28,565 nt of DNA from Desulfobacca acetoxidans (GTDB taxonomy: Bacteria; Desulfobacterota; Desulfobaccia; Desulfobaccales; 0-14-0-80-60-11), in contig DZCR01000023.1 of assembly GCA_022736495.1 (NCBI GenBank), forward strand, positions 1 to 28,565, written 5' to 3'. Every line of letters starts with the position of its first letter. Within the stretch, counting starts at the first letter, position 1. Made by a program: the position numbers and the translations under genes. A model generated the notes under the pieces. It was not told the origin of the DNA. It saw only the letters and a program-made list of their open reading frames with translations, and made no database searches. Shown one piece after another: positions 5,441-9,401 of this stretch.

Positions 5441-5983
5441 TTACCACCAAAACTCGGGATAGCGGCGCTGGGGGGCTATATTGTTGACCAACAGGGCCAC
5501 CATCAGCATGATGAGGGCCCCGGCCCCTGCGGGTATGACAGCATAGAGGTAGCCCAGGTTAGCCACCTTGGGGCCGCCGATGACCGCGATGAGGGCAGTG
5601 GCCCCACCCGGCGGGTGGAGGGTCTTGGTGGCATGCATCACCGCGATGCTGGTGGACACCGCCAGGGCTGCGGCGATCCAAAGGTGCGGGTCCAGCACTT
5701 TGTAAGCGGTGACGCCAATGAGGGCCGAAATAACGTGGCCGCCCAGCAGGTTGCGAGGCTGGGCCAGGGGACTCTTGATGGCCCCGTAAATAAGCACTGC
5801 CGAAGCCCCGAAGGAGCCGATCAGCATCAGTAAGTCGGTCTTGTCCAGGAGGCCGTAATTGACATAGGCCACCGCAGCGATCCCCAAAAAAGCCCCCAGC
5901 CAGGACCAGAGAATTTCCGCCAGGCTGACCCGGGGCGGACTCTGAGTGGTGCCGGTCATTTTGCGGAAGAAGTTTCCTAACAT
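5441..5983 (-). CDS. HPP family integral membrane protein
   Basis: The HPP family comprises membrane proteins of four to five helices. Some members have been linked to nitrite transport in chloroplasts and cyanobacteria, but bacterial roles are mostly untested. The family signature is visible in KTLHPPGGATALIAV. Helices lie near residues 20-40, 48-66, 80-98, 105-120 and 140-165. The start is the ATG at 5983 (180 residues), preceded by GAGGGAAC. A longer open frame to 6196 exists, but its extra 71 residues are low-complexity and overlap the CBS gene. The start overlaps the stop of the CBS gene by seven bases, so the two are translationally coupled. The partner probably regulates it. Confidence 0.88.
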   Translation of the reverse strand: MLGNFFRKMTGTTQSPPRVSLAEILWSWLGAFLGIAAVAYVNYGLLDKTDLLMLIGSFGASAVLIYGAIKSPLAQPRNLLGGHVISALIGVTAYKVLDPHLWIAAALAVSTSIAVMHATKTLHPPGGATALIAVIGGPKVANLGYLYAVIPAGAGALIMLMVALLVNNIAPQRRYPEFWW

Positions 5984-6603
5984 GACAGTTCCCTCCCCCT
6001 GGTGGCCTTGACGATATCCCCTCGAGATACCAGACCCAGGAGGCGGCCGGCCGGGTCGGTGACCGCCACCCGGTTGATCCCTTTGCCGGTCAGGGTAGCG
6101 GCAATAGCCTGCGCCGGAGTCTCCGGGGTCACGGTTATGGCTGGCGCACTCATAATATCCTGGGCCAGTGCCCTTTTGATGGGCAGGGCGACACAACCTT
6201 TGGTTTTCAGGCAGTTCGCCACCAGGCTCATGAAGTTTCGTGGTTCTTTGACGCCCATGCGGGAGAGAAAGTCTTTTTCCGAAATCATCCCCACCACTGT
6301 ATTGCCGGCATCCACCACGGGCAGACCCGATATTCCCCGCCGGCCCATGGCCGCAGCCACCTCGGCCACCGGCGTGTCGGGATTGACCGTGACCACGTCG
6401 CGGGTCATGATCTCGGCTGCAGTAACGTCGCGGCTCAGCCGCTCCAGGGCGTGCTGAAACGCCAGGCGGTAGATTTCTTTGAAATCCCCCGGGGTGATAT
6501 CCAGGTACCCTGGAATGGCGCGCATGGCCTCCAGGATATCCTCCTCTTTGAGGTCGAACCCCGGGTCAGGGCAGATTTCCGGATTGTTGCGGGCATCCGA
6601 CAT
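5977..6603 (-). CDS. Tandem CBS-domain protein, partner of the HPP protein
   Basis: This 208-residue soluble protein has an N-terminal helical segment (about 20-57) and two CBS repeats. CBS1 is about 62-115 (AEIMTRDVVTVNPDTPV to GMISEKDFL) and CBS2 about 147-202 (AQDIMSAPAITVTPETPA to GLVSRGDIVKA). Paired CBS repeats form a Bateman module that binds adenosyl ligands or other nucleotides and gates the activity of partners. Some HPP proteins are known as single fusions with CBS domains, so this split, overlapping gene pair is the natural two-gene version. It is the first gene of the pair. Function as a regulatory subunit is inferred from context. Confidence 0.9.
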   Translation of the reverse strand: MSDARNNPEICPDPGFDLKEEDILEAMRAIPGYLDITPGDFKEIYRLAFQHALERLSRDVTAAEIMTRDVVTVNPDTPVAEVAAAMGRRGISGLPVVDAGNTVVGMISEKDFLSRMGVKEPRNFMSLVANCLKTKGCVALPIKRALAQDIMSAPAITVTPETPAQAIAATLTGKGINRVAVTDPAGRLLGLVSRGDIVKATRGRELSC

Positions 6604-6864: not shown

Positions 6865-8037
6865 TCAGCCGGTATGCTCTTTTTTATACAGCGGCGACAT
6901 ATCCCGTAAGGTTTGGACGATCTTCGGCATCACGTTCAGGATCTTGTCGATATCCGCCTCGGTGTTGTCAATGCCCAGGGTAAAGACCAGGGTGCCCTGG
7001 GCCAAAGCATGCCCCAGGCCGGTGCCGATGAGCACGTGCGAGGCCCTGAGCGACCCGGAGGCGCAGGCAGACCGCGTGGCCACGATGATGCCTTCCTCGT
7101 CCAGCATGAGCACCAGGCTCTCGCCTTCGATGTATTCCACGGACACAGAGTACAGGTGCGGCAAGCACTGGGTGGGATGGCCGTTAACCCTGATCTCGGG
7201 GATGCGCTCGTTTAACCCTCTGGCCAGGCGATCTTTAAGGGCCTGGATTCGAGGCAGGCGTTCGGGCATCTCCAGGCGGGCCAACTCCGCAGCCGCGCCC
7301 ATGCCCACAATGCCGATAAGGTTTTCCGTCCCGGCCCGGCGCTTGTTCTCCTGGAGGCCGCCGTCGATGAAAGGCCAGATGGGCGTGCCCTTGCGGACAT
7401 ACAGGGCGCCCACCCCCGGGGGTCCGTAGAACTGGTTGGCGGCCATACTCAGGAGATTCACCCCCAACTGCTCCACGTCCACGGGGATGATGCCGGTGGC
7501 GGCCACCGCGTCGGTATGCATCATCACTTTGTTTTTCTTGGCGATCTTGGCGATGTCGGCGATGGGTTCGATGGTGCCGATCTCGTTGTTGGCCAGCATA
7601 ATGCTAATGAGAATGGTCTCCGGGGTGATGGCCTTTTCCACCGCCGCCGGGTCAACCAGACCGTATTTGTCCACGTCCAGAGAGGTAACCCGATAATCCA
7701 GGAGCCGGAGGGTCCGGAGGGAATTCAACACCGACTTGTGCTCGATGTTGGAGGTGATAATGTGACGGCCCTTTTCCCGCAGCCCGATGGCGATCCCCTT
7801 GATGGCGTGATTGACGGACTCAGTCCCGCCGGAACCGAACACCACCTCTTTAGGATCGGCGTTGATCAAAGCCGCCACCTGGCCCCGGGCCTTCTCCAGG
7901 GCTGCGGCCGCCGGCTGCCCCACCTGGTTATCGCTGGATGGGTTGCCGAACACGGTTTCGATATAATTGATCATGGCCTCCTTCACCGCGGGGAGAAGGG
8001 GGGTGGCCGCAAGATGGTCGAGATAGATTACGCCCAT
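6865..8037 (-). CDS. NifS/IscS-like protein lacking the PLP lysine
   Basis: Overall this 390-residue protein is a group I cysteine desulfurase: IYLDHLAATPL, FGNPSS, GGTESVNHAI, NIEHKSV, LANNEIGTIEPI, HTDAV and the sulfur-accepting C325 in TRSACASGSL. However, the lysine that forms the Schiff base with PLP (K202 in Azotobacter NifS, in a GHK context) is Gln here. The segment reads AANQFYGPPGVG, and Q202 is codon CAG at 7432-7434. The Asn of TESNN is Val, and Gln of DAVQA is Ala, so the PLP pocket is changed in several places. Archaeoglobus fulgidus IscS is a known case with Asp at this position that lacks desulfurase activity and lends its Cys as a cluster ligand to IscU. The end MSPLYKK also resembles that protein. 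It is 30 bases downstream of the scaffold gene, with a GAGGA box before the ATG. Calling it an active desulfurase would be unsafe. Confidence 0.93.
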   Translation of the reverse strand: MGVIYLDHLAATPLLPAVKEAMINYIETVFGNPSSDNQVGQPAAAALEKARGQVAALINADPKEVVFGSGGTESVNHAIKGIAIGLREKGRHIITSNIEHKSVLNSLRTLRLLDYRVTSLDVDKYGLVDPAAVEKAITPETILISIMLANNEIGTIEPIADIAKIAKKNKVMMHTDAVAATGIIPVDVEQLGVNLLSMAANQFYGPPGVGALYVRKGTPIWPFIDGGLQENKRRAGTENLIGIVGMGAAAELARLEMPERLPRIQALKDRLARGLNERIPEIRVNGHPTQCLPHLYSVSVEYIEGESLVLMLDEEGIIVATRSACASGSLRASHVLIGTGLGHALAQGTLVFTLGIDNTEADIDKILNVMPKIVQTLRDMSPLYKKEHTG

Positions 8038-8067
8038 GACAGTATCCTCATCTTTCGAGCCGGGGTA

Positions 8068-8592
8068 TCAGTGGTCATGCTCATGAGGGATTTCCTTGCC
8101 GCAGAAGATGCACATGGGGGAGTCTTCCTCCACCTTCTTTTCGCAATAGGGACAATAGCAACCTTCGCCTTTCTGCTTGTGATGCGGCTCTTTGTCCAGG
8201 TCGCTGTCTACCACCTTTCCGGCCTTGCGGTCCAGGTAATTCTTGATGGCGGAGTGCAGGGCATCGGCCCCCAGGTTGGAACAGTGCAGCTTGTTGGGCG
8301 GCAGCCCCCCCAGGGCCTCGGCCACATCCGCGTTGGTGATCTTCATAGCCTCTTGCAGGGTTTTGCCCTTGGCCATTTCCGTGATCATGCTGGAAACCGC
8401 GATGGCCGCGCCACAGCCAAACGTCTTAAACTTGACGTCAACGATTTTGTCATTTTCGACCTTGATAAACACATTCATCATGTCCCCGCACACGGGGTTG
8501 CCGACTTCGCCCACCCCATCGGCCTGCAGGATTTCTCCCACATTGCGGGGATTCTTAAAGTGGTCCAGAACTATCGGGGAATAAGAAGCCAT
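8068..8592 (-). CDS. NifU/IscU-type Fe-S scaffold with C-terminal zinc ribbon
   Basis: The N-terminal domain (1-125) is an IscU/NifU-N scaffold, on which [2Fe-2S] and [4Fe-4S] clusters are built before transfer. The cluster ligands are all present: C35 and D37 in GNPVCGD, C60 in FGCGAAIA, and C104 in KLHCSNLG. The canonical FGCGSAIA has Ala in place of Ser. After a His/Lys-rich linker comes a four-cysteine knuckle pair, CPYC (147-150) and CIFC (161-164), and a His-rich end. This is probably a small zinc ribbon not found in classical IscU. The protein has 174 residues. AGAAGGAT precedes the ATG, and it is the first gene of an operon with the NifS-like protein. Confidence 0.95.
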   Translation of the reverse strand: MASYSPIVLDHFKNPRNVGEILQADGVGEVGNPVCGDMMNVFIKVENDKIVDVKFKTFGCGAAIAVSSMITEMAKGKTLQEAMKITNADVAEALGGLPPNKLHCSNLGADALHSAIKNYLDRKAGKVVDSDLDKEPHHKQKGEGCYCPYCEKKVEEDSPMCIFCGKEIPHEHDH

Positions 8593-8638
8593 ATCCTTCT
8601 CCCATTAAGGTGATTTCGACAAATAGTTTCTATTATAA

Positions 8639-8667
8639 ATATTAAGGTTTATACGGTTAAGGGTCAA
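8639..8667 (-). promoter_or_regulatory. Sigma70-type promoter of the NifU-NifS operon
   Basis: On the minus strand TTGACC (complement of 8662-8667) is followed by a 17-base spacer and TAATAT (complement of 8639-8644), about 45 bases before the NifU start. The surroundings are strongly AT-rich compared with the genes. No IscR-type palindrome was recognised in it. Confidence 0.65.
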
Positions 8668-8888: not shown

Positions 8889-9401
8889 ATGTTGATACCC
8901 TGCAACCGATTTCAGGCCAGCTTTGCCGATCCGGGGATCAGGCTGGAACTGAAAACCCCGGCACCCATCATGTGGGACGAGCATGGCGGCACGTTCGTCC
9001 TTAAAGTGAGCGACCCGGAAGTGGTCGCAATGGCCAACCCCCCGGCGGACTCCGGCTGCCGTCTGGACATCTCCCTGACCCCGGGCGCCGATCTCATCCG
9101 CGCCCTGGAAGAATTTGCCGGCCTGCATCAGCTTCCCCTAGCCCCGCCCACGGCCCCGGACCTGGAAGAAGACGCCCTTTTGGCCGCCTGCCACCTGCCG
9201 GGTCAAAACCTCTTTGTCTTCGCCGAAGAACCCACCCTGACGGCCGTTAGGCGCGGTGAGGCCGTGGAACTGGCGATCCTGGGCAATTTCAAAACCCGGC
9301 GGGTTCCCTGCCAGACCACCGACATGGTCATTCACCTCACCAAAGCCGCCATGGCGAAGTTAGTAGCGTTTATGCTCTGCCAGGCCCGGACCGGACGATA
9401 G
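8889..9401 (+). CDS. Conserved hypothetical protein
   Basis: This soluble protein of 170 residues has no signal peptide and no membrane helix. Its codon use (GC-rich third positions) matches neighbouring genes, and ACGAGG precedes the ATG, so it looks like a real gene. It is acidic in the middle (PDLEEDALLAA) and contains three scattered cysteines. The strands near FVLKVSDPEVVAMA and AVELAILGNFKTRRVPC suggest an alpha/beta or beta fold. I recognise no domain. It is alone between divergent and convergent neighbours. Confidence 0.65.
   Translation: MLIPCNRFQASFADPGIRLELKTPAPIMWDEHGGTFVLKVSDPEVVAMANPPADSGCRLDISLTPGADLIRALEEFAGLHQLPLAPPTAPDLEEDALLAACHLPGQNLFVFAEEPTLTAVRRGEAVELAILGNFKTRRVPCQTTDMVIHLTKAAMAKLVAFMLCQARTGR

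Follow-up and report, generated by a model that had tools for sequence, protein, structure and literature searches.

A NifS-like protein without the catalytic lysine, encoded beside NifU in Desulfobacca and in related bacteria

Lysine-less systems described so far and the pair in the window

In the usual account of Fe-S cluster assembly, the sulfur of clusters built on IscU or NifU comes from cysteine by way of a pyridoxal phosphate (PLP) enzyme. The best known departure from this account is the structure of Archaeoglobus fulgidus IscS2 with IscU (4eb5, 4hvk), an archaeal pair with Asp at the lysine site. According to PMC7585200, this IscS has no desulfurase activity, and one of its cysteines serves as a ligand of the IscU cluster; whether the complex is physiologically relevant has been questioned (PMC8617193, available part). 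By its description, Methanosarcina acetivorans IscS1 resembles the protein analyzed here in that it is reported to lack the catalytic Lys; its partner IscU1 is unusually long (24.2 kDa), and inclusion bodies formed upon expression (PMC7585200). The SMS (SmsCB) system likewise serves cluster assembly in anaerobes and has no desulfurase in its operon, and sulfide as the sulfur source of the M. jannaschii system is supported in vivo (PMC12192291, available part); the SMS scaffold is of the SufBC type, whereas the scaffold at the locus described below is NifU. To these known cases, A. fulgidus and M. acetivorans IscS1, we add a bacterial lysine-less group spanning several phyla, a NifU that carries a ribbon at its C terminus, and TusA and DsrE2 genes beside relatives of the pair; no report of any of the three was found in a literature search outside which most subscription papers lay. 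The existence of a large lysine-less family in anaerobic bacteria suggests cluster building without on-the-spot cysteine sulfur, and the bacterial group provides non-archaeal proteins for testing the origin of the sulfur and a possible ligand role of the subunit cysteine.

The window, that is, the whole stretch of 28,565 nucleotides of Desulfobacca acetoxidans DNA that was analyzed, encodes the pair on the minus strand, with nifU 30 bp upstream of the NifS-like gene:

6865..8037, minus strand: NifS-like protein of 390 aa, lysine-less (Q202, N201, A199, A179, V351), with H100, D176 and C325 kept
7432..7434, minus strand: codon of Q202, which replaces the Schiff-base lysine (raw sequence and alignment of 121 sequences)
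7063..7065, minus strand: codon of C325, the candidate persulfide or ligand cysteine (raw sequence and alignment of 121 sequences)
6985..6987, minus strand: codon of V351, which replaces the substrate-carboxylate arginine (raw sequence and comparison of N-Q-type with Lys-type sequences)
8068..8592, minus strand: NifU/IscU-type scaffold of 174 aa with C35, D37, C60, H103 and C104 (TIGR03419, 201.6 bits, cut-off 187.9)
8092..8160, minus strand: zinc-ribbon-like C-terminal ribbon of NifU with C145, C147, C150, C161 and C164 (Zn_Ribbon_1 on the excised segment)
8632..8660, minus strand: promoter-like site TTAACC-17-TATAAT upstream of nifU (a consensus match only, 10 of 12 positions)

The NifS-like frame is open and contains the motifs GTESVN, IEHKS, HTDAVAA, SMAANQFYGPPGVG and RSACASG where the original prediction had placed them. 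Q202, N201, A179 and C325 were all as described there, and the codons of Q202 and C325 were verified in the raw sequence. Q202 aligns with the Lys of 9wep, the nearest solved desulfurase, and the spacings of H100-D176-A179-Q202 and C325-V351 are those of E. coli IscS H104-D180-Q183-K206 and C328-R354 (numbering from PMC9978102). The window pair shares the predicted fold, the Cys loop, the gene pairing and the NifU site with canonical NifS-NifU and IscS-IscU, but its NifS-like member lacks the Schiff-base lysine (Q202), the PLP-pocket Gln and His (A179, N201) and the substrate Arg (V351) of a PLP-dependent cysteine desulfurase, and scores below the NCBIfam cut-offs for NifS and IscS. The mobile-loop cysteine is present (C325), in a loop (residues 324-329) that has low confidence in the structure model. 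The prediction had overlooked V351, at the site of E. coli Arg354, and A199; at position 199, 18 of 24 Lys-type sequences have Ser and the other 6 have Ala. Val75, which it had listed at the Asn of the TESNN motif, is indeed there but is not a signature residue, the site being variable (N 44, V 39, I 32 and C 6 among 121 sequences).

Divergent from nifU, a 170-aa protein without a Pfam match is encoded at 8889-9401 (plus strand), with similarly placed homologues in six other loci (L004, L006, L007, L009, L015 and L020). Downstream of the NifS-like gene, about 260 bp away on the same strand, lies a gene for a CBS-domain protein (5441-6603, minus strand), followed by one for an HPP-type membrane protein.

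Coordinated loss of the catalytic set under purifying selection

The loss of the lysine is far beyond chance. In a close set made up of the query and the best 120 of 8000 scored candidates (n = 121, 81-95% identity), position 202 is Q in 116 sequences, P in 5 and K in none, and N201, H100, H174, D176 and C325 are invariant; in the broader phylum sample described below, 39 of the 39 sequences at least 57% identical to the query are lysine-less. A contig scan with the patterns AAN[QP]FYGP and LRTLRLLDY yielded loci L001-L080 (80 of 89 confirmed stretches), residue counts from which are not independent of the trait because the loci were pattern-selected. Across 18 genes (that of the window and 17 from L001-L022), dN/dS (Nei-Gojobori) had a median of 0.19 and a maximum of 0.34 over 153 pairs, and no stop codons were found in these genes. 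Because Q or P but never K occurs in the 121 sequences, dN/dS is 0.19 and stops are absent, we interpret the replacement as a lineage-wide change under purifying selection. The earlier view that selection rather than decay was at work, which a lysine in close relatives would have undermined, is thus well supported by the low dN/dS and by the invariance of N201, H100, D176 and C325. That the gene is decaying, or that Q202 reflects a sequencing error or a strain-specific change, is scarcely credible given this dN/dS, the 18 genes free of stops and the lysine-less copies in 76 genomes of the phylum sample; a strain-specific error is ruled out by the close homologues together with that sample.

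For the phylum sample, 297 genomes were picked evenly across the phylum to which a close MAG belongs; 134 of them had a match at E 1e-100 or better. From 105 of these 134, we took 136 NifS-like sequences in descending similarity to the query, weaker matches being excluded; ten of the 136 come from six genomes picked earlier for the trait. Lysine-less sequences number 81 (Q 49, P 13, T 5, D 4, A 4, S 3, N 2, I 1) and Lys-type sequences 55, proportions that are not a phylum frequency because the sequences were taken down a similarity ranking. All 55 Lys-types have H-D-Q-H-K-C-R at positions 100, 176, 179, 201, 202, 325 and 351. Among the 81 lysine-less sequences, Q179 and R351 are found in none and H201 in 4 (with N in 57), H100 and D176 are kept in all, and C325 in 80, the other having a gap. 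Under a strict rule, only 6 of the 390 positions split 42 N-Q-type from 24 Lys-type sequences, and four of the six are 179, 201, 202 and 351. One chloroflexotal sequence, L297, departs from the full set: Gln replaces the Lys and Met the Arg, yet Q179 and H201 are kept. Of the sample matches flagged for stops, L173, L175 and L182 have none inside the gene in a translated alignment, and L225 and L253 contain unread positions. In the L297 locus, a TusA gene lies 36 bp from the NifS-like gene; the L297 protein perhaps represents an early stage of the loss.

Variants of E. coli IscS bear on what the replaced residues would do. Desulfurase activity is absent from K206A, Q183E and H104Q, some PLP remains bound to K206A, and R354K retains full activity (PMC9978102, available part). 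The inactivity of K206A and Q183E makes desulfurase activity of the window protein very unlikely, and from its residues we judge that it has very probably lost PLP-dependent desulfurase activity; the loss of Arg at 351 need not in itself kill an enzyme, given that R354K is fully active. Both H100 and D176, at sites of PLP contact in IscS, are retained throughout the 81 lysine-less sequences, so that PLP or another molecule may still be bound in the pocket. One might therefore envisage a residual or altered PLP enzyme in which PLP is held by H100, D176 and T72 without a Schiff base and supports slow or different chemistry, as the PLP retained by E. coli K206A would allow. We consider such an enzyme improbable, since Q179 and R351 have gone along with the Lys in 81 of 81 sequences and H201 in 77, and the E. 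coli K206A and Q183E variants are inactive.

The A. fulgidus parallel that the original prediction had drawn was borne out and can be extended. At the corresponding sites, A. fulgidus IscS (4eb5) has ISSND, DATAS and TLLLTLG, that is, N-D, Ala and Leu, so that besides the Lys three pocket positions (201, 179 and 351) have changed alike in the two proteins, to Asn, Ala and Leu or Val; in both, the Cys is kept and an IscU-type gene is adjacent. The two differ in that the archaeal protein has Asp where the bacterial one has Gln. Asp replaces Lys in 119 of the 120 best A. fulgidus IscS homologues, itself included; the sole record with Lys, P0124, carries V16I and D199K relative to P0123, with the Lys placed as in 4r5f, which is titled a D199K mutant.

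NifU linkage and the candidate role of Cys325

The window NifU has the three Cys and the Asp of an IscU-type scaffold (C35, D37, C60, C104) and exceeds the TIGR03419 cut-off. Its structure model matches IscU structures, and it is 64% identical to A. fulgidus IscU, the chain of which has 138 residues in the structure, compared with 174 in the window protein with its C-terminal ribbon. Among 75 rows, C35, D37, C60, H103 and C104 are each present in 73-74, and the remainder are gaps. The ribbon has no Pfam match above cut-off; the excised segment matches Zn_Ribbon_1 with E 2.1e-4 and 21.4 bits, below the curated cut-off of 25. Its pattern, CYCPYC...C..CG, occurs with variant forms in most Desulfobacterota-type loci and is absent from most chloroflexotal ones.

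NifU adjoins the lysine-less NifS gene in 27 of 27 loci (the window and the 26 best-ranked new loci of the phylum sample) and in 74 of the 80 pattern-selected loci; among the six loci without it, L008 and L065 are truncated by the end of a contig. We also examined 20 genomes picked for carrying the gene, with completeness unstated. NifU lies next to 19 of the 20 lysine-less N-type genes in these genomes, and the 45 NifU-domain genes have a lysine-less neighbor in 23 cases, a Lys-type neighbor in 6 and no NifS within 2 kb in 16; in 9 of these 20 trait-carrying genomes, every NifU found has a lysine-less neighbor. In the Chloroflexota sample, with its short flanks, NifU is near 7 of 9 lysine-less and 11 of 22 Lys-type genes. 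Because a bacterial group with the same coordinated losses adjoins NifU in 27 of 27 loci, we argue that such pairs work in the cell.

The window pair probably assembles Fe-S clusters, with Cys325 acting at the NifU site and with a NifS-like subunit that has ceased to be a PLP-dependent cysteine desulfurase. In the mechanism that we propose, the NifS-like subunit would keep its fold and its mobile Cys325 loop and dock on NifU, so that Cys325 could act directly at the site formed by C35, D37, C60 and C104. It might supply one more ligand to the forming [2Fe-2S] cluster, on the model of the A. fulgidus IscS-IscU structure, a role for which we see the case as evenly balanced; or it might carry sulfane sulfur and pass it to NifU, a relay that is possible but clearly less probable. 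The two roles may hold together. The sulfur itself would be supplied by sulfide or, in persulfide form, by a separate donor protein, and not by cysteine on the NifS-like subunit. A non-enzymatic regulator or chaperone of NifU, with C325 unused in cluster building, would suffice to explain the tight linkage of the two genes; we regard this as unlikely, given that 80 of the 81 lysine-less sequences retain C325 and the remaining one has a gap there, while other pocket residues drift.

Sulfur supply and the origin of the lysine-less types

Among 30 chloroflexotal loci listed (131 genomes matched; flanks of about 1.5 kb), TusA lies within 1.3 kb of 8 of 9 lysine-less versus 0 of 22 Lys-type NifS genes (Fisher p 1.1e-6); the nine include the query's own locus, without which the count is 7 of 8. 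Loci L052-L079, from Chloroflexota and others, including one deltaproteobacterial MAG (L067), show rows of lysine-less NifS, NifU, DsrE2 and TusA genes, with TusA in 18 and DsrE2 in 11 of the 28. The family identity of TusA (PF01206) and DsrE2 (PF13686) was confirmed on example genes. The lineage of the window also has a second lysine-less NifS, which we denoted PAL-type after its SGPALG or SGPSLG motif, with Ala for Gln, Val for Arg and the Cys kept; a TusA-like gene lies upstream of 4 of 4 such genes (L106, L108, L109 and L110; neighborhoods L142-L145) versus 0 of 15 Lys-types. In the window and the 26 phylum-sample loci, tblastn gave no TusA or DsrE2 match, and none was found in L001-L051 or beside the H-Q-type L160. 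As the sulfur source, the genes beside these relatives argue for a persulfide carrier no less strongly than for free sulfide. For these relatives persulfide feeding is a good guess, and for the window pair it is only possible, since TusA is missing from the window, the 26 sample loci and L001-L051. The sulfide-using or scaffold-only module that had been suggested for the window pair is a candidate interpretation.

In E. coli, TusA and IscU bind at different sites on IscS (PMC2854127, available part). The IscS-TusA step could run in reverse, with TusA, together with DsrE2, giving persulfide sulfur to C325 and from there to NifU. The separate binding sites and the gene associations in Chloroflexota, in L052-L079 and around the PAL-type genes speak for such a relay. 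We nevertheless hold it to be rather unlikely: the two genes are missing from the window and from the loci just named, 3 of the 20 trait-carrying genomes have no TusA match, and gene association is silent on the direction of transfer. In 19 of the 20 genomes, a Lys-type NifS- or SufS-like protein is also present and could act as the persulfide supplier, so that these cells are not without desulfurases; 12 of the 20 also carry a SufB/D-type gene. In G001-G004, no NifU was found near the Lys-type NifS/SufS-like gene.

Several individual loci can be recorded here. G013, the genome of L053, measures 1.2 Mb and may be incomplete; apart from the lysine-less NifS, it has no NifS/SufS-like match at E 1e-20. 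Stand-alone Lys-type NifS genes of the window's lineage (L126, L128, L129 and L130) encode an odd Cys loop, GAACHG or GSACHA, and have no NifU nearby. The PAL-type genes of G001 and G003 are accompanied by a gene for an Rrf2-type regulator and by NifU downstream, and in G001 HcyBio and NIL-ferredoxin genes lie further upstream; the HcyBio/NIL-ferredoxin pathway is described as making homocysteine from aspartate semialdehyde and sulfide (PMC5764234, available part).

Taken more broadly, anaerobic bacteria and archaea may widely use lysine-less NifS-NifU pairs as a second way of assembling Fe-S clusters. Selection would have turned the desulfurase into a cluster ligand and sulfur acceptor that works without PLP and receives its sulfur from sulfide or from persulfides of TusA/DsrE2; in some lineages, it would serve every NifU of the genome. 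We offer this reading tentatively, with the balance tilted slightly against it.

Phylogenetic trees bear on whether the bacterial and archaeal types share an origin. In a 92-row tree built without columns 179, 199, 201, 202 and 351, bacterial lysine-less sequences form a clade of 47 (support 100/99) and 14 archaeal ones a separate clade (100/100), but joining the two in one clade is not rejected (p-AU 0.43; tree with outgroup). A 191-row mixture-model tree without outgroup has a branch (support 99) that sets 97 bacterial rows apart, with a long-branch warning for two rows, and groups the archaeal rows separately with four bacterial N-D rows. In a quick 195-row LG+G4 tree, the SufS-type outgroup roots among the bacterial lysine-less rows, where there is a long-branch warning; with this rooting, those rows would be paraphyletic, against a clean clade. 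On these alignments, one origin and two origins of the archaeal and bacterial types both stand. The four bacterial rows (L270, L274, L278 and L284), from phylum-sample genomes, have the archaeal-type N-D motif with Glu at 351, and their grouping with archaeal rows possibly reflects horizontal transfer.
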